A stretch of DNA of 21,070 nt, from IMG/VR virus record IMGVR_UViG_3300046001_002927, positions 1 to 21,070 of that record; one strand, written 5' to 3'. Origin of the DNA: a virus. The notes below the pieces were generated by a model. It saw only the letters and a list, made by a program, of their open reading frames with translations. It made no database searches and was not told where the DNA came from. The translations under genes were made by a program, and so were the position numbers. Shown here piece by piece: positions 6,188 to 13,942 of this stretch; position 1 is the stretch's first letter, and every line of letters begins with the position of its first letter.

Positions 6188-6522
6188 TTTCTCCAGGCAG
6201 AGCAGGCTCCACCTGAACCATAATGCCGCCCAAGATAGGCAAGGGCTGCAATCATTTGTGCTGCTGGAGCCTCTGAGCGTTTCATACCCAGATTATCCAT
6301 TGTGCCATCCAGTAATTGGCCTATGCCTTCGGCTGAACTAACTGGATTCTTGCGATCATTCCAATTGCTTTCTTTAGCCATTAGTTGATCCCAACATTTA
6401 AAATCTTTAGCATCAAGCAACTCTTTCGCCAGTTCCCTGGGATCAACTTGCTCAATTAGGAGTTTTTTCTCAATTGGGATTGCCACTTGAGGATTTGCTC
6501 CACTTATGACTAAAGAAGTCAT
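6163..6522 (-). CDS. Transglycosylase/lysozyme-like muralytic protein
   Basis: A 119-residue protein whose residues about 40-119 match the SLT-like domain of actinobacterial resuscitation or aggregation-promoting proteins: the catalytic-Glu motif AKESNWN, then SSAEGIGQLL, and the terminal block YLGRHYGSGGACSAWRKW. It should act on peptidoglycan outside the membrane, or as a virion lysin. The ATG at 6520-6522 overlaps the TGA of whiB. However, the same frame stays open for 24 more codons and encodes a positively charged, hydrophobic stretch ending in S-G-A, a typical signal peptide. An AAAGGAG (6590-6596) lies seven bases before an in-frame ATC (6580-6582). Either a non-standard start or the shorter form is possible. 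Confidence 0.7.
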   Translation of the reverse strand: MTSLVISGANPQVAIPIEKKLLIEQVDPRELAKELLDAKDFKCWDQLMAKESNWNDRKNPVSSAEGIGQLLDGTMDNLGMKRSEAPAAQMIAALAYLGRHYGSGGACSAWRKWQKLKYW

Positions 6523-6995
6523 TGCGCTAACCCCGACGATGAGCGCAATTCTTGCTGTGAGTTTTCTATATTCAGGTTTGATTGGATTGCTCCTTTCATT
6601 TTCATCTTTTTATATCGGCGTATCATTTCTTTTACATAAGAAGTGTGAACCTTTAAAAAAGATGCTATGTGTTCGGGAGAACTTCCTTCATCGTGCATTT
6701 TCCGAACAATCTTGGCTTTACCTTTGCGTTCCACGAATAGAGATTGATTTCTAAACAATCTCCTGCGCATCTCGCCAGTAGTTCCGCCCCAAATGCCGAA
6801 AGTAATTCTCTCCTTTATGGCGTATTCCAAGCATTCCTTTCTATGTATGCAGCCGTTGCAAATTGCTTGCAACTCTGGGAGGCGCTCTGCCTCTTGGGTT
6901 TTTCCATCGGGAAAAAAGTAATCTTTGTTTTCCAGTTCGGCACATTTGGCCTCTGGAAACCTAGGGGAATTGGATATAAGTTCAAAGGAGTTCAT
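6519..6995 (-). CDS. WhiB-family transcriptional regulator with extra C-terminal HTH
   Basis: A 158-residue protein with the WhiB signature: C18, then C46-x2-C49-x5-C55 to bind a 4Fe-4S cluster, and the turn GIWGG at 67-71 followed by RRRLFR. WhiB proteins bind the principal sigma factor and modulate host promoters; phage copies can reprogramme the host. After the WhiB domain, residues about 95-130 form a second helical unit with a helix-turn-helix look (GSSPEHIASFLKVHTSYVKEMI). The last 25 residues are polar and lie over the start frame of the next gene. The start overlaps the stop of the resolvase-like gene. This is the strongest evidence for an actinobacterial host. Confidence 0.9.
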   Translation of the reverse strand: MNSFELISNSPRFPEAKCAELENKDYFFPDGKTQEAERLPELQAICNGCIHRKECLEYAIKERITFGIWGGTTGEMRRRLFRNQSLFVERKGKAKIVRKMHDEGSSPEHIASFLKVHTSYVKEMIRRYKKMKMKGAIQSNLNIENSQQELRSSSGLAQ

Positions 6996-7674: not shown

Positions 7675-7820
7675 TTTGTTAATGCCTTCTTCATCTTGGC
7701 TCTGCTCTTTTCAGCCTTCTTAACCTGGGCTACAACATCTACCCCATTAGTTAGAATTGTGGCGAAGTAGGCCCCTAATAGAGCCAAAAGCGCAGCACCA
7801 GCCATTATTGCCATTTCCAT
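7671..7820 (-). CDS. 49-residue single-pass membrane protein
   Basis: A short gene at the head of the leftward early block. ATG 7818-7820 follows an AAGGGGG ribosome binding site seven bases away, and the TGA overlaps the next gene's ATG. Residues about 3-25 form one hydrophobic segment (AIMAGAALLALLGAYFATIL). The C-terminal half is strongly basic (Lys/Arg-rich), suggesting a cytoplasmic tail. Its role is unknown; small phage membrane proteins of this type may act on the host membrane or in superinfection exclusion. It is the first leftward gene after the divergent promoter region. Confidence 0.65.
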   Translation of the reverse strand: MEMAIMAGAALLALLGAYFATILTNGVDVVAQVKKAEKSRAKMKKALTK

Positions 7821-7895
7821 TTCTATACCCCCTTTTAAGTGCCTAGATGCCCAGGCGTGGCTTTATTGTGGCACACATAACTCTTAATTGCGCTT

Positions 7896-8007
7896 AGCCT
7901 AGGCCGACACGCCGAGGCTGGATTAGGCCTTTGATTTGACTGTATAGGCAGATGTCTATACTCTTATCTTATTGGAACAGAGAGTTCCATATAAAGGGAG
8001 GCACCAA
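7896..8007 (+). promoter_or_regulatory. Rightward promoter, operator-like repeat and leader (copy 1)
   Basis: TTGACT (7936-7941) with TATACT (7957-7962) makes a plausible promoter with a short 15-base spacer; TACTCT at 7959-7964 gives 17. An inverted repeat GTATAG-N8-CTATAC (7942-7947, 7956-7961) overlaps spacer and -10, so it looks like a repressor site. The leader has a hairpin, TGGAAC (7973-7978) with GTTCCA (7984-7989), then AAAGGGAGGCACCAAATG containing the ribosome binding site and start. A GC-rich dyad (AGCCT 7896-7900, AGGCT 7915-7919) and GACACGCCGA (7906-7915) lie upstream. Nearly the whole unit recurs at 9243-9346. Confidence 0.7.
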
Positions 8008-8208
8008 ATGAAATACACAATTAAGCATCATAAGTTAAACAATCAATGGTATGTAGTTACAAAAAATCCAGCATTAACTTATTCAACTGTTACATGGTTT
8101 GATACAAAAGCAGATGCACAACAATACATAAATGAAGAAATTGCATATAGCAAAGAACGCATGAAAGATATTGTTTCAATATCAGATTATTTTAAGTTGG
8201 CCAACTAA
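8008..8208 (+). CDS. Hypothetical protein, first gene of rightward operon
   Basis: A 66-residue protein I do not recognise. It reads as an alpha/beta fold: strands at KYTIKHHKLNNQWYVVTK, then TWFDTKADAQQYINEEI, which resembles small domains where a strand is followed by an AxxYI helix. The start is ATG 8008-8010, eight bases after GGGAGG. The in-frame TTG at 7972 falls inside the leader hairpin and is not credible. The gene is AT-rich and uses mostly A/T-ending codons. It shares its leader with the gene at 9344, which suggests coordinated, strong expression. Confidence 0.7.
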   Translation: MKYTIKHHKLNNQWYVVTKNPALTYSTVTWFDTKADAQQYINEEIAYSKERMKDIVSISDYFKLAN

Positions 8209-8405
8209 TGCCTAAATTTAAGATTGGCGATAGAGTTTTTTATCAAAATCAATTAGCAACCATAATGGATGTGCATAATTATTTGCCGACTAAATCTGGC
8301 AAAAAGAAATTATTATGGTACTCAGTGCAATTAGATGGAATGCGCTCTCAATATGCAGTTGCACAAAAAACCAATAGTTTAAAAAAAGCAAAGGAAGGTA
8401 ACTAA
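8208..8405 (+). CDS. Hypothetical small protein, SH3/KOW-like barrel
   Basis: A 65-residue basic protein. It begins FKIGDRVFYQNQLATIMDV and continues LLWYSVQLDG, a pattern common in small SH3-like or KOW-like beta barrels that carry a G-D-x-V turn. Such folds often bind nucleic acid or proteins, but the role here is unknown. ATG 8208-8210 shares a base with the previous stop (TAATG) and its own stop shares a base with the next ATG, so it is the second gene in a coupled string. Confidence 0.65.
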   Translation: MPKFKIGDRVFYQNQLATIMDVHNYLPTKSGKKKLLWYSVQLDGMRSQYAVAQKTNSLKKAKEGN

Positions 8406-8566
8406 TGCAACGCTCTAAAAGATATTATCAGGTGCGAACAGTAGCCAGAGCAACTTTCTGGTTACTGGCACTGGCCACGATTTACTTCTTGGCAACTCAT
8501 ATCAACTACACGCCAGATGGCTACTGTTTCGGATCAATGAATGAATGTTACTTAGGAGGCAAATAA
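8405..8566 (+). CDS. 53-residue membrane-anchored protein with two external cysteines
   Basis: It starts at ATG 8405-8407 in a TAATG overlap. The N-terminus is basic (QRSKRYYQVR), followed by one hydrophobic segment at about residues 16-32 (ATFWLLALATIYFLA). The C-terminal 20 residues contain C41 and C48. By the positive-inside rule the cysteines would be outside the membrane and could form a disulphide. No known family is recognised. A role at the envelope, such as blocking other phages, is only a guess from context. Confidence 0.6.
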   Translation: MQRSKRYYQVRTVARATFWLLALATIYFLATHINYTPDGYCFGSMNECYLGGK

Positions 8567-8740
8567 ATGTTTAAATATGCAACAGAGGGCGCAAAGATTC
8601 ATACTTTAAAAATCTGCGACATGTGCGAGAAATGGCACGCTATCTGGTTTATTACTTACCAGCATCCAAATGCTGAGAAGTATTCAGTTAATGTTTGTGT
8701 ATATTGCAAGAAAAAGAATGCTGAATGGGAGGTGAAATAA
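8567..8740 (+). CDS. 57-residue zinc-ribbon protein
   Basis: ATG 8567-8569 directly follows the previous stop, with an AGGAGG at 8554-8559. The protein has CDMC at residues 17-20 and CVYC at 44-47, the usual spacing for a small treble-clef or zinc ribbon, with aromatic residues between (WHAIWFITY). Such proteins may bind DNA, RNA or a host protein. Function is unknown. It is the fourth gene in the rightward string. Confidence 0.65.
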   Translation: MFKYATEGAKIHTLKICDMCEKWHAIWFITYQHPNAEKYSVNVCVYCKKKNAEWEVK

Positions 8741-8908
8741 ATGGCTGCAATGAAAGAACTCTTTATCGAGATTCAAATGGATATGTTAGCCTCAGCCGAA
8801 GTTTTGGCGGTGGCAAGTAATAGTGCTGATCCAGAGGAAATGAGCAGGGCTATCTATACCAGTATGAAAGTTTTAAATCCGCATCTAAAAATGTTATTAG
8901 GAGAGTAA
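8741..8908 (+). CDS. 55-residue helical hypothetical protein
   Basis: ATG 8741-8743 follows the preceding stop without a gap, and a GGGAGG at 8727-8732 serves as ribosome binding site. The protein is almost entirely amphipathic helix with many Met, Leu and Ala residues and no cysteines; it could form a small helical bundle or dimer. No family is recognised. Its stop shares a base with the start of the ribbon-helix-helix gene, suggesting coupled expression. Confidence 0.6.
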   Translation: MAAMKELFIEIQMDMLASAEVLAVASNSADPEEMSRAIYTSMKVLNPHLKMLLGE

Positions 8909-9039
8909 TGAGCGCCAAGCCACAAAGATCAGTAAGAGTTTCAGATGTAATCTGGAATAAGTTAAAAATCAAGGCAGCAGCCGAGGGCAAAACCGCCTCT
9001 GAGGTAATCAATGATTATCTAAAGGATTACATCAAGTGA
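8908..9039 (+). CDS. Ribbon-helix-helix DNA-binding protein
   Basis: A 43-residue protein with the full Arc/MetJ/CopG plan: a short strand RSVRVSDVI that inserts in the major groove as a dimer ribbon, helix WNKLKIKAAAEGK, then TASEVINDYLKDYI. Such proteins are usually repressors, and often autorepressors. The inverted repeats at the two rightward promoters are natural candidate targets; this is inference. It lies sixth in the operon, coupled by TAATG and GTGA overlaps. Confidence 0.75.
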   Translation: MSAKPQRSVRVSDVIWNKLKIKAAAEGKTASEVINDYLKDYIK

Positions 9040-9269
9040 AGTTGGTTTGGATGGTGCTGGTAGTGCTGGTAGCAATCGGCAAAGGCAGGCGAGTTCTGCC
9101 CTGGGCTATTGTGGGTTACCTGGGCGGTTGGATCGCCCTAGGCGTGGTTCTACTCAGCCGCCAGCGCCCCCTGCGCCCAGTTGCCCCCTGGTTGCTGGAT
9201 TTGGGCTATCAGAGCCAGGCTAAGCGTGCAGTTGCCAAGATAGACACGCCGAAGGACATATTAGGTTAG
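9036..9269 (+). CDS. GC-rich small membrane protein
   Basis: A 77-residue protein starting at GTG 9036-9038, overlapping the TGA of the ribbon-helix-helix gene. It has two hydrophobic segments, about residues 2-14 and 21-41, divided by a basic GKGRR loop, and a basic soluble tail from residue 42. The DNA is clearly more GC-rich than the rest of the operon, with G/C-ending codons, so it may have a different origin. No family is recognised. Holin-like or envelope functions are possible. Confidence 0.6.
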   Translation: MKLVWMVLVVLVAIGKGRRVLPWAIVGYLGGWIALGVVLLSRQRPLRPVAPWLLDLGYQSQAKRAVAKIDTPKDILG

Positions 9270-9343
9270 ATTTGCATGTATAGACGATTGCCTATACACT
9301 TATCCCATCGGAACAAAAGGTTCCAAATAAAGGGAGGCACCAA
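9243..9343 (+). promoter_or_regulatory. Rightward promoter, operator-like repeat and leader (copy 2)
   Basis: This is a second copy of the module at 7906-8010. TTGCAT (9272-9277) and TATACA (9293-9298) again have a 15-base spacer. The inverted repeat GTATAG-N8-CTATAC is at 9278-9283 and 9292-9297. The leader hairpin is GGAAC (9310-9314) with GTTCC (9320-9324), again with a five-base loop. The ribosome binding segment AAAGGGAGGCACCAAATG is identical. GACACGCCGA at 9243-9252 is also shared and lies at the end of the preceding gene. Confidence 0.7.
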
Positions 9344-9640
9344 ATGAACGCAAAGAAAGTAACAGCAGATCAGAAGTTAGCATTTGTAGAAAAAATAATT
9401 GCTTCAGATGTTTTTAATTCATCTGAGGTTGCAGCAGTAGCAATCCTTCAACAATTAGTTGATGATGCTAAAAAAGAAATTGCAACTCAGTTTGTAAATA
9501 AGCAAGATGCAGATGCTCGCAAAATTGGCAAGATGATTGCTAATAAAAAAGAAGCAATTAAGGTTGCAGCAAATGTTGTAAGTTTTGATACAGATACAGT
9601 TGCTGGCGCTTATGCCCGTGAGTTGGGAGTTAAACTTTAA
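9344..9640 (+). CDS. Hypothetical helical protein under its own promoter
   Basis: A 98-residue, Ala/Lys-rich, mostly helical protein I do not recognise. It has no cysteine or membrane segment. Residues 1-50 look like two helices (KLAFVEKII, VAAVAILQQLVDDAKKEI), then a basic central region (RKIGKMIANKKEAIKVAA) and a short C-terminus. The start is fixed by the same leader and ribosome binding site as the gene at 8008, and a strong terminator follows six bases after the stop. A single short gene with its own promoter and terminator suggests high or timed expression. Confidence 0.7.
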   Translation: MNAKKVTADQKLAFVEKIIASDVFNSSEVAAVAILQQLVDDAKKEIATQFVNKQDADARKIGKMIANKKEAIKVAANVVSFDTDTVAGAYARELGVKL

Positions 9641-9645
9641 AAAAG

Positions 9646-9692
9646 AAAAAAATCCCTACCTTCGCCGACGGCTGGCGAGGTAGGGATTTTTT
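9646..9692. terminator. Bidirectional intrinsic terminator
   Basis: AAAAAATCCCTACC (9647-9660) pairs with GGTAGGGATTTTTT (9679-9692), with CGCC/GGCG (9663-9666, 9674-9677) inside. T-runs follow the stem on both strands. It separates the rightward operon ending at 9640 from the leftward late operon ending at 9691, so it can stop both. Confidence 0.9.
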
Positions 9693-12532: not shown

Positions 12533-12700
12533 TTACTCCTTTGGATTTCGTAATTTGTAAGTTGCCCCCCATATAAATAGTGAAATAAAAATTGCATAAC
12601 CAACAACAACTTTGGCTGAACCTTCCAGAACAACCCAAGCAATGAACATTCCTAAGAGTGTCCATAATTGATTAAAAATATCTGAGAACCAAGCCTTCAT
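12533..12700 (-). CDS. 55-residue two-helix membrane protein
   Basis: A short gene starting at ATG 12698-12700, in a TAATG overlap with the stop of the secreted repeat protein and with AGGAGG upstream (12709-12714). Two hydrophobic segments, about residues 12-26 (LWTLLGMFIAWVVLE) and 31-46 (VVVGYAIFISLFIWGA), are joined by a short turn, with a basic C-terminus. This is a holin-sized hairpin membrane protein. Its stop lies inside the ribosome binding site of the next holin candidate, so the two are tightly coupled. Confidence 0.65.
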   Translation of the reverse strand: MKAWFSDIFNQLWTLLGMFIAWVVLEGSAKVVVGYAIFISLFIWGATYKLRNPKE

Positions 12701-13737
12701 TATGGATTCCTCCTGTAAGTAGCGGCAGCGCTAGCAATAGATGCTGCCTGCGTTGCGATATTTCCAACGATGATTGCAGAGATAACTACCTTCTCTGATT
12801 TTTCTCTCACCTCTGGCGCCATATCTGCCCCCACTTCGCCAAAGGCTGCAAGTGCTGCTGCTGGATTCGTAAATAATTCTTGCAATAATTCAGCAGGATT
12901 TTGAAGTAAGGCAATTGCAACTGCCTGTTCTTGCGTTAAAACTACGCCATTAGGGAGGATAACCTCATCTTTTGGAATTTCAATTGGCTCAACCTCTGAT
13001 TCAATCTCTGGTTCAACCTCTGGTTCAACCTCTGGTTCAACCTCTGGTTCAGTTGGTTCAACTGGTGTTGGCTCTGTAATTGGTTCAGGTTCAGGAGTTG
13101 GTTCTACAACCTCTGGCTCTGGAACTACAACAGGATCAGGATCAGGCGTTACCACTGGTACAGGTTGCGGCATTGGTGCAGGTTGCGGCGCTGGTTCAGA
13201 TGTTGCAGTAGAACCATCAACTGGCGCAGGTTGTAAAGTAGATGTATCAACTGTTGCAGTGTTTGTATCAACTGTTGCAGTAGATGTATCTGTTGTAGAT
13301 GTTGATGTATCAACTGTTGCAGTAGATGTATCAACTGTTGCAGTTGAAGTATCTGAGGTTGCAGTAGATGTATCTGAGGTTGCAGTAGATGTATCAACTG
13401 TTGCAGTTGAAGTATCTGTTGGCGCCTGAACTGGCTCCTCTGCTGGCTGCGGAACTACTCCTTGGAAATAACCAAGAGGGCCGCCGTTAAGAGAATCACT
13501 AATAAAAATACGATAAGAACCAGCATAACCACCTGTACAGTAAAAGGCTGGAATGTATCCTTTATCAGCAAAAAACTGATTAGAGTTATCCCAGGAAATT
13601 TGATATGAGCGTTGTTGCCCCTCAGATGTGGCACATATTACAGTTGTACTGCCTATTGCTGCCTGAGCATTTGGAGTAAAAAATAATGATGTGCCTGCAA
13701 TTAAAATTATTACAAAAGTTAATCTACTTTTTCTCAC
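12700..13737 (-). CDS. Secreted low-complexity repeat protein with C-terminal hydrophobic helix
   Basis: A 345-residue protein. With GTG 13735-13737 as start it begins with a clear signal peptide (basic RKSR, hydrophobic TFVIILIAGTSLFF, cleavage near NAQAA). An AGG lies seven bases upstream. The frame is open to TTG 13773 and ATG 13758, but neither gives a better start. After a cysteine-containing globular part comes a run of eight DTSTATV-type heptads, then a long Pro/Glu-rich stalk, then a helical region and a C-terminal hydrophobic helix (VVISAIIVGNIATQAASIASAAA). It looks like a cell-surface or wall-spanning protein. I recall no characterised homologue. Its place before holin candidates suggests lysis or envelope action. 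Confidence 0.7.
   Translation of the reverse strand: MRKSRLTFVIILIAGTSLFFTPNAQAAIGSTTVICATSEGQQRSYQISWDNSNQFFADKGYIPAFYCTGGYAGSYRIFISDSLNGGPLGYFQGVVPQPAEEPVQAPTDTSTATVDTSTATSDTSTATSDTSTATVDTSTATVDTSTSTTDTSTATVDTNTATVDTSTLQPAPVDGSTATSEPAPQPAPMPQPVPVVTPDPDPVVVPEPEVVEPTPEPEPITEPTPVEPTEPEVEPEVEPEVEPEIESEVEPIEIPKDEVILPNGVVLTQEQAVAIALLQNPAELLQELFTNPAAALAAFGEVGADMAPEVREKSEKVVISAIIVGNIATQAASIASAAATYRRNP
13237..13416 (-). repeat. 21-base tandem repeat coding for DTSTATV heptads
   Basis: Eight complete units and a partial ninth (DTST) of a seven-residue repeat lie in the secreted protein. Variants are DTSTATV, DTSTATS, DTSTSTT and DTNTATV. Third-base differences between copies show the array is not wholly recent. 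A second array of 12-base repeats (TGGTTCAACCTC at 13009-13020, 13021-13032, 13033-13044) codes for the Pro/Glu stalk. Confidence 0.85.
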
Positions 13738-13942
13738 AAAGTAACCTATAAATTTCATCAATTCTGGCTTCAAGCCGTTGAACTTGAAAGGTTATTTCAT
13801 TAACTTTATCTTTTACACTGCTGCCGCCATTGGGCTTAAGTTCAGATAAGTAACTCTTAACTAAAAACTTTACACCTACACCTAAAAACCCAATAAGAGT
13901 TCCAACGGCAACGGCTATTGCAGCCCATTCGTTAGCGGTCAT
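13724..13942 (-). CDS. Small membrane protein with coiled coil
   Basis: A 72-residue protein. Residues 5-30 are hydrophobic (EWAAIAVAVGTLIGFLGVGVKFLV) and residues 44-70 form a heptad helix (VNEITFQVQRLEARIDEIYRLL). This membrane-anchor plus coiled-coil plan is common for small late-phage proteins near lysis genes. Its end overlaps the start of the secreted protein by 14 bases with the chosen start there. It may be a lysis accessory; no family is recognised with certainty. Confidence 0.65.
   Translation of the reverse strand: MTANEWAAIAVAVGTLIGFLGVGVKFLVKSYLSELKPNGGSSVKDKVNEITFQVQRLEARIDEIYRLLCEKK

Follow-up and report, generated by a model that had tools for sequence, protein, structure and literature searches.

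A duplicated promoter, palindrome and leader-hairpin module as a putative expression cassette for exchangeable genes in uncultured phages

The window, that is the whole 21,070-base stretch of viral DNA analysed here, raises the question of why two rightward units that begin with unrelated genes should be preceded by nearly the same sequence. Two modules of about 105 nt, P-A (7906-8010) and P-B (9243-9346), precede genes whose products of 66 and 98 aa have no relationship to each other, as a sequence-only reading of this DNA had claimed. Both contain GACACGCCGA, TTG-N17-TACNCT, a palindrome, a hairpin and AAAGGGAGGCACCAAATG, and all the elements named in that reading were found in their places; the core of the modules is an ungapped direct repeat of 83 nt with 81% identity (7930-8012 versus 9266-9348). 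Over the whole record there are exactly two exact matches each for the GTATAG-N8-CTATAC 20-mer, GGAAC-N5-GTTCC, GACACGCCGA and AAAGGGAGGCACCAAATG, the chance expectation for the last being 0.03 with up to three mismatches. The module is likely to be a self-contained expression cassette, composed of a SigA-type promoter, a palindrome for which a ribbon-helix-helix (RHH) protein is the candidate reader, a hairpin kept only as a shape and a swappable first gene (Table 1).

Table 1. Features of the two modules and of the units behind them
Feature	Position	Strand	Basis or remark
P-A upstream element GACACGCCGA	7906-7915, about -65	+	occurs only with these modules
P-A -35-like TTGACT	7936-7941	+	TTG spacing to TATAC
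P-A operator palindrome (predicted) ATAGGCAGATGTCTAT	7944-7959	+	column invariance, symmetry; earlier 20-mer at 7942-7961
P-A -10-like TACTCT	7959-7964	+	sequence; 17 nt from -35
P-A predicted transcription start, unit A	7971	+	inferred, 7 nt after -10
P-A leader hairpin TGGAAC-AGAGA-GTTCCA	7973-7989	+	-8.9 kcal/mol, z -2.66; covariation
Shine-Dalgarno/start block AAAGGGAGGCACCAAATG, unit A	7993-8010, ATG 8008-8010	+	sequence, exact repeat
Slot A cargo gene, 66 aa, no known family	8008-8208	+
Further small unit A genes, 65, 53, 57 and 55 aa	8208-8908	+	53 and 55 aa are conserved core
43-aa RHH protein, candidate P-A and P-B regulator	8908-9039	+	phrog_6506 match
77-aa core gene	9036-9269	+	C-terminus IDTPKD overlaps P-B GACACGCCGA
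P-B upstream element GACACGCCGA	9243-9252	+	frozen codons; module association
P-B -35-like TTGCAT	9272-9277	+	sequence; placed as in P-A
P-B operator palindrome (predicted) ATAGACGATTGCCTAT	9280-9295	+	column invariance, symmetry; earlier 20-mer at 9278-9297
P-B -10-like TACACT	9295-9300	+	sequence; 17 nt from -35
P-B predicted transcription start, unit B	9307	+	inferred from -10 spacing
P-B leader hairpin GGAAC-AAAAG-GTTCC	9310-9324	+	-7.9 kcal/mol, z -2.28; covariation
Shine-Dalgarno/start block AAAGGGAGGCACCAAATG, unit B	9329-9346, ATG 9344-9346	+	sequence, exact repeat
Slot B cargo gene, 98 aa, no known family	9344-9640	+
Terminator at the end of unit B and of the leftward operon facing it	9647-9692	+	-30 kcal/mol, z -7.6, A/T-run flanks

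A search of relatives recovered the same cassette from some 40 related contigs of IMG/VR, as a rule with two or three copies per contig, and 59 modules from these contigs follow one common layout, a comparison that supports well the earlier proposal of a duplicated promoter-operator-leader module leading into two rightward units. Copies on one contig share one orientation and sit in one region of about 2.5 kb, and the motif was not found outside the module region on records of 33-34 kb. The description of a two-copy module holds for this window, while several relatives have a third, operator-less copy at a further position, P-C, which the window lacks. Neither this third position nor the swapping of cargo and the synonymous-site constraint on GACACGCCGA, both treated below, had been part of the sequence-only reading. 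When contigs were retrieved via the RHH protein, with the motif not used, 42 of 42 carried a module. No isolated phage carrying the module was found by DNA similarity, and a motif scan of 84,980 species for a host or prophage gave only scattered matches in unrelated phyla, which were judged, from their spread as a whole, to be chance. The cassette group consists of uncultured phages, whose hosts are probably Actinobacteria.

The promoter of the module reads as sigma-70/SigA-type with a 17-nt spacing, so that a host RNA polymerase of this type would initiate at TTG-N17-TACNYT. A TTG is found 21 nt 5' of TATAC in 24/24 P-A and 22/26 P-B modules, the -10 consensus CTATACATTTAT is nearly invariant among P-A/P-B cores, and an A occupies the predicted start position in all 47 distinct cores; both predicted starts fall in the ranges anticipated earlier (7965-7975 and 9300-9310). 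A -10 of TATACT/TATACA with a 15-nt spacer was also considered, TACNYT with 17 nt fitting better. A generic promoter scan left the module sites unflagged, because their -10 is far from TATAAT.

The predicted operator is a 16-bp palindrome with consensus ATAG.CA..TG.CTAT, present in P-A and P-B and absent from P-C; the 6-nt arms GTATAG/CTATAC noticed earlier are present as the local form of this wider palindrome. TAG, C-8, G-3 and C-1 are identical in 47/47 distinct P-A/P-B cores, a conservation that in part reflects common ancestry, since the contigs are related. Some loci were gathered with patterns holding parts of the motif, and the conservation of CTATAC-TTAT there is partly built in; the main collection pattern contained neither spacer, hairpin nor upstream element, and one other pattern included TATAG. 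The axis of the palindrome is the best symmetry axis, and 34 of 20,000 column shuffles were equally good. Selection on operator and hairpin, as previously suggested, is borne out across the 59 modules by the invariant palindrome columns and by hairpin covariation. The palindrome lies over the spacer and reaches the margin of the -10, a place in which RNA polymerase would be obstructed by a dimer or tetramer on the DNA. Its invariant columns fall inside a spacer expected to be free.

Upstream of the promoter, GACACGCCGA is held at a nearly fixed distance in the 59-module comparison; in module loci the -10 element follows 40-75 nt downstream in 48 of 49 cases, the 49th being cut by a contig end. 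In the overlapping 77-aa gene the GACACGCCG codons are invariant while neighbouring synonymous sites vary, the overlap codons being GAC in 25/25, ACG in 25/25 and CCG in 24/25. As synonymous codons are frozen in this overlap, GACACGCCGA is a part of the module at the DNA level; near -65, it probably binds a further protein.

The best candidate for binding the palindrome is the 43-aa RHH protein. It matches the Arc-like repressor family phrog_6506 (E=8.3e-9), it is 74-84% identical in relatives, with PQRS.R invariant, and its model has helices at residues 11-26 and 30-42 following an extended N-terminus; the assignment to the RHH fold is drawn from the phrog_6506 match and this model. In a structure search the top matches were mostly RHH proteins, weak ones (E > 0.4), and comparison by sequence with solved structures gave no significant match. 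Its conservation together with the module makes it a credible candidate for an autoregulator of P-A and P-B; adjacent core genes co-occur with the module equally well, so that co-occurrence does not discriminate among them. Made from unit A, the Arc-like protein would exert negative feedback on both units, whose timing would be early. It resembles P22 Arc as a small RHH protein, with a palindromic TAG..CTA-core operator (here a predicted one) over the promoter, and differs in the residues at the predicted beta strand; it would also serve two promoters, each followed by genes that change.

It is possible, although we consider it the lesser chance, that the palindrome is read by another phage regulator, such as the WhiB-HTH protein (6519-6995), or by a host factor, with the RHH protein acting elsewhere. 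The WhiB gene neighbours the module and is conserved to an equal degree, GACACGCCGA points to a further DNA-binding protein, and the choice of the RHH protein rests on its proximity and on the likeness of TAG..CTA to the P22 Arc TAGA box (PMC12645479). Against such a reader stand the position of the RHH gene inside unit A, the usual place of an autoregulator, and the strong conservation of its product as a member of the Arc-like family. Moreover, WhiB proteins typically act near the -35, and the inverted repeat here sits in the spacer. More improbable is the absence of any operator, with the conservation of spacer and palindrome explained by recent cassette copies kept alike by recombination. 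Modules do recombine, the whole module core is well conserved and P-C is without the palindrome, as this explanation would have it; however, columns -9, -5 and -15 of the spacer vary freely beside the invariant and symmetric TAG/CTA and C-8/G-3, and the adjacent hairpin has repeatedly been exchanged as a whole within the same lineages.

Both leaders of the window fold better than shuffled sequences, and a 5' hairpin is formed by 38/38 distinct leaders, nearly always beginning 0-3 nt from the predicted +1 and mostly with a loop of five bases. The GGAAC/GTTCC stem of the earlier reading is present and its hairpin is conserved as a shape, but this sequence belongs to a set of at least seven stems that can replace one another. 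Cognate arms pair with a mean of -7.4 kcal/mol versus -4.75 kcal/mol when swapped; in an arm-swap test on 11 stem types the value was -82 versus -43 +/- 7.8, and none of 50,000 swaps was as good. This test used a fixed split, replacing an earlier pairing count biased by best-hairpin choice, and left out one leader type that showed no fold ahead of the Shine-Dalgarno block. Stem and loop sequences differ between phages, within one genome and between copies before the same gene, and therefore the hairpin, conserved as a shape, probably does not work as a sequence-specific element. Four unrelated stems precede one cargo family; in this natural repeated experiment one gene is combined with as many as four unrelated hairpins that agree in shape, which points to a structural role. 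The mRNA would start with a short hairpin, set no more than about 3 nt from its 5' end, and a strong Shine-Dalgarno site would come directly after it. The hairpin would act by shape, most likely by protecting the 5' end against RNases and by leaving the ribosome site open. Stem-loops at the 5' terminus stabilise bacterial mRNAs such as ompA, papA and aprE (reviewed in PMC3997798), in which, as in the predicted leaders here, a short hairpin close to the 5' end or at it precedes the ribosome site; unlike these, the present hairpin is one component of a portable cassette of phages and is freely exchanged in sequence.

That the hairpin is instead a specific RNA signal, for antitermination (nut/put-like) or for a translational repressor, is very unlikely, since sequence-specific recognition would not tolerate the variation of stems and loops within a genome and before the same gene. 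Its loop length, mostly five, would agree with such a signal, and, standing where early transcripts begin, a stem of 5 bp closed by a purine-rich five-base loop resembles lambda boxB; conversely, a consistent boxA is not present, and the leftward leader carries a different hairpin with a four-base loop. Lambda boxB/nut was rejected as the main reading, stems and loops not being conserved. An intrinsic terminator was also discarded, the hairpin being followed by A/G-rich Shine-Dalgarno sequence and no T run, and so was a LexA/SOS box, for which the GAAC-N5-GTTC spacing is wrong (the actinobacterial box is GAAC-N4-GTTC) and whose stem is replaced in relatives. Among known RNA families, Rfam gave no match in the window at its gathering score, and no tRNA was found.

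Behind the modules of the relatives there are 18 cargo families, with database matches at most weak where checked: at least 12 at A, at least five at B and at least three at C, two being common to A and B. On one contig (L125) the 98-aa gene stands behind a chimeric P-A whose core is P-B-like. As judged from these sequences, the genes behind the slots are swapped between phages and even between slots, and because the cassette is repeated, recombination within its copies would let the first gene of each unit be exchanged. Least probable of all is that PeSL-type recombination is the main role of the cassette, its stem-loop ending the transcription that arrives from upstream: the swapping of cargo and the chimeric modules resemble the role of PeSLs in T4-type phages, but the stem-loop lies between promoter and ribosome site, and the A/G-rich sequence after it is not that of a terminator in the direction of transcription.

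The closest known systems are the ESAS/SAS of cluster K mycobacteriophages, the PeSLs of T4-type phages and the early promoters of SIRV2; the design of the cassette is reminiscent of phage and archaeal-virus early-gene control, differing in a hairpin kept by shape. Cluster K genomes carry about seven ESAS (Adephagia) and 11-19 SAS, and Pope et al. saw little evidence that the ESAS repeats form an RNA hairpin (PMC3203893, PMC11373665). As there, a repeated module of an actinophage (here a probable one) stands beside start codons of unrelated genes, with a conserved ribosome-site block, an upstream SigA-like promoter with 17-18 nt spacing (here 17) and an imperfect inverted repeat, and a repressor is suspected. 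The layout is shared and the consensus sequences are unrelated; the 13-bp SAS GGGATAGGAGCCC, allowing up to two mismatches, had no match just before start codons in the window. Unlike cluster K, there are two or three modules here, a separate and strongly covarying leader hairpin, and GACACGCCGA, which is without a described counterpart. The cluster K layout was described with only a suspected repressor, and the compact version found here, with one obvious candidate, could be a simpler system in which to identify such a regulator.

PeSL cassettes were reportedly described by Arbiol (2010) and Comeau (2014). They are outlined in PMC4503421 as repeated promoter and stem-loop cassettes mediating the shuffling of small genes. 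The exchange of genes by cassette recombination is similar here, with families in both slots and the L125 chimera; unlike PeSLs, which combine a strong sigma-70 promoter with a stem-loop terminator, the present stem-loop lies in the 5' leader of the very transcript that the cassette starts, with no T residues after it, and host group and sequence are unrelated. In SIRV2 a conserved early promoter is given for 11 of 13 early genes in the account of PMC11065993, where such promoters are treated with Aca8-type regulators and, as here, one conserved regulatory sequence precedes small, fast-changing genes unrelated to one another. From the same account, archaeal-virus early promoters share a suspected autorepressor and, in some cases, inverted repeats over the core promoter; unlike the cassette, these are TATA/BRE promoters with more copies per genome, and the relevant passages mention no leader hairpin. 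Some archaeal-virus cargo genes have been shown to be anti-defence (PMC11065993); for the cargo here such a role would be conjecture.

A wider and rather doubtful reading would make the cassette an interchangeable slot system for anti-defence or host takeover in these uncultured phages of probably actinobacterial hosts, with strong immediate-early promoters, the shape-only hairpin, silencing by an Aca-like RHH autorepressor once the first burst is over, and rearrangement through recombination of one cassette with another. If it were true, tracking the cassette in metagenomes would lead to new counter-defence genes, as with the SIRV2 early promoter. The cassette is a sequence tag for otherwise unrecognisable small genes in phages with no cultured relative. 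Finally, the terminator at which unit B and the leftward operon meet is strong and probably two-way.

The two stretches described in the sequence-only reading as copies of one module (upstream element, promoter, palindrome, leader hairpin and Shine-Dalgarno/start block) are indeed duplicates: P-A and P-B share an ungapped 83-nt repeat of 81% identity, GACACGCCGA is common to both about 15 nt upstream of it, and every module element is present in exactly two copies across the 21,070 bases of the record. The record looks like that of an actinophage, since it encodes a WhiB protein, with relatives in Mycobacterium and Gordonia phages, and a primase whose closest relatives are mainly from Arthrobacter phages (42-47% identity over half of the protein). 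No copy of the module was found in isolated phages by DNA similarity search. Also encoded is a 357-aa phage protein with a low-complexity repeat, which may be secreted or of a surface type.

Features of the window and of one related contig
Feature	Position	Strand
Module P-A	7906-8010	
Module P-B	9243-9346	
GACACGCCGA of P-B	9243-9252	
Ribbon-helix-helix (RHH) protein, 43 aa	8908-9039	
WhiB domain with C-terminal helix-turn-helix-like region (weak matches)	6519-6995	minus
Divergent leftward leader hairpin GCCTGGGCATCTAGGC, then ribosome site AAAAGGGGG	7820-7906	minus
Hairpin of -30 kcal/mol, A run before, T run after	9647-9692	
357-aa protein, long low-complexity TSTATVDTSTAT repeat and PEPEVE stretch	12700-13773	minus
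Chimeric module of contig L125	401-519 (L125)	

About 40 related contigs came from IMG/VR searches that started from the leader block, from the -10 region, from the 98-aa protein encoded behind P-B and, last, from the RHH protein alone; they yielded 59 distinct modules. These modules occupy three positions in a conserved layout: beside P-A lie leftward genes for WhiB, a 111-aa and a 49-aa protein; the P-A unit comprises variable genes, the 53-aa and 55-aa genes, the RHH protein and a 77-aa gene; P-B and one variable gene follow and, in some phages, a third module, P-C, with another variable gene; the layout closes with a leftward operon that faces these units and whose nearest gene is epimerase-like. 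The very stable hairpin at 9647-9692 of the window is likely a two-way terminator between the converging operons. In ten records searched whole there are two or three modules each, all pointing one way, and no further module lies elsewhere in those of 33-34 kb. All 42 contigs picked by their RHH protein, with no use of the motif, contain one module or more. In a more remote group that encodes this RHH protein (L220, L221, L222 and L223), the promoter cores have diverged and the ribosome block is AAAAGAAAGG in place of AAAAGGAAGG; this group is useful for testing what the protein requires.

TTG lies 21 nt upstream of TATAC in 24/24 P-A and 22/26 P-B modules, which places TACNYT 17 nt past a -35-like hexamer, the normal sigma-70 spacing. 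The module promoters were not called by a generic promoter scanner, as their hexamers are far from TTGACA/TATAAT; thus, it is position and conservation that point to a sigma-70-spaced promoter. In an ordinary promoter the spacer sequence is unconstrained. Here T-12, A-11, G-10, C-8, G-3 and C-1 are invariant in 47/47 distinct cores, while positions -15, -9 and -5 vary, and the invariant positions mirror one another (ATAG.CA..TG.CTAT) around an axis that outranks all others and is equalled in 34/20,000 column shuffles. The six-base arms GTATAG/CTATAC of the earlier reading are present only as a special case of this palindrome (2/23 P-A, 5/22 P-B); P-C has neither palindrome nor GACACGCCGA. The patterns used to collect several of the loci contained part of the right arm, and one of them TATAG as well, so that conservation on the -10 side partly reflects the choice of loci; the RHH-selected contigs have the same cores as the pattern-gathered loci.

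In P-B, GACACGCCGA overlaps the 3' end of the 77-aa gene. Among 25 sequences the overlapping codons are fixed (GAC 25, ACG 25, CCG 24), the isoleucine codon just before them is ATA in 13 and ATC in 12, and all four alanine codons occur at a site three codons upstream. In P-A the element lies outside any gene and is equally conserved; at module loci, 48/49 occurrences have a downstream -10 element, the remaining one being cut by a contig end. Frozen synonymous codons, intergenic conservation and linkage to the -10 together argue that GACACGCCGA belongs to P-A and P-B as a DNA element; its location near -65 could accommodate an activator or a second repressor dimer. The two-part WhiB regulator is conserved beside the module and is a candidate reader of the element. 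In L125 and L152, where P-C directly follows the 77-aa gene, the stretch reads AATACACC; the codon constraint seems to be gone where this operator type is gone.

The hairpin folds in all 38 distinct leaders, although for three with GGGATAC the minimum-energy fold is a different one; in nearly all it begins at 0-3 nt from the predicted transcript start and ends immediately 5' of the Shine-Dalgarno site, and it mostly has a five-base loop. Stems include GGAAC/GTTCC, TTGAGG/CCTCAA, GGGG/CCCC, GGGC/GCCC, GGGTTGC with GTAATCC or GTAGCCC, GGGATAC with GTATCC or GTACCC, and the two-part TTGA..GGC/GCC..TCAA. The fold is lost when left and right halves of different leaders are combined (mean -7.4 kcal/mol cognate, -4.75 swapped); for 11 dissimilar stem types the sum is -82 versus -43 +/- 7.8, with 0/50,000 permutations as good. 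The z-scores of individual leaders average a modest -1.5, which is usual for short stems. Four unrelated stems precede one slot-A gene family, and four also precede a family that occurs mainly in slot B. Conservation of the shape of the 5' hairpin, but not of its sequence, suggests a generic role. The established effect of 5' hairpins is 5'-end protection from RppH/RNase E or RNase J (PMC3997798); such shielding of the mRNA would be the favoured mechanism, and the hairpin may additionally keep the ribosome site open. Upstream of the 49-aa gene, the facing leftward leader likewise contains a hairpin, here with a four-base loop, directly ahead of the ribosome site; the stem covaries in relatives (CGCCCA/TGGGCG, CCTAG/CTAGG), so that the hairpin design is common to both divergent transcripts.

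Behind the modules lie unrelated gene families, at least 12 at P-A, several at P-B and three at P-C; two are found behind both P-A and P-B, and eight representatives gave almost no database matches. The flanking proteins of L125 and of the window are 98-100% identical, and in L125 the window's slot-B gene sits behind a P-A. This module is chimeric, its upstream half being like the window's P-A and its core like P-B, and its leader resembles the P-B leader of another group; leader exchange is independent of the gene behind. Swapped cargo, chimera and leader exchange indicate, from sequence comparison, that the repeated cassettes are exchange points, whatever other role they have.

The 43-aa protein matches an Arc-like RHH profile, and its model (mean pLDDT 84.5) has two helices behind an extended N-terminus; structure-library matches are mainly RHH proteins (Arc, CopG, PutA, MazE antitoxins), none of them significant for this very short chain. 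The TAG..CTA halves of the palindrome resemble the TAGA box of P22 Arc, a resemblance only. With its gene inside unit A, the RHH protein would be expected to control its own unit and, along with it, unit B. However, other genes co-occur with the module as often. Of the interpretation first proposed, the shared promoter-operator-leader design is well supported, and control of both units by the RHH protein is evenly balanced.

The layout is closest to the ESAS/SAS of cluster K mycobacteriophages, which work on Adephagia interprets as promoters of SigA-like type that carry an inverted repeat and answer to a suspected repressor (PMC3203893, PMC11373665); however, the sequences are unrelated and the covarying leader hairpin is new. 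Gene shuffling is like that at the PeSLs of T4-type phages, but the module stem-loop, unlike theirs, is no terminator. Early genes of archaeal viruses follow the same logic, in which one promoter sequence heads many small, mutually unrelated genes, some of them anti-defence genes (PMC11065993). One common stem, GGGATAC...GTAGCCC (L126 and others), has GGGATA and AGCCC in common with the cluster K SAS 13-mer GGGATAGGAGCCC; the likeness is probably due to chance, and is worth checking for shared origin.
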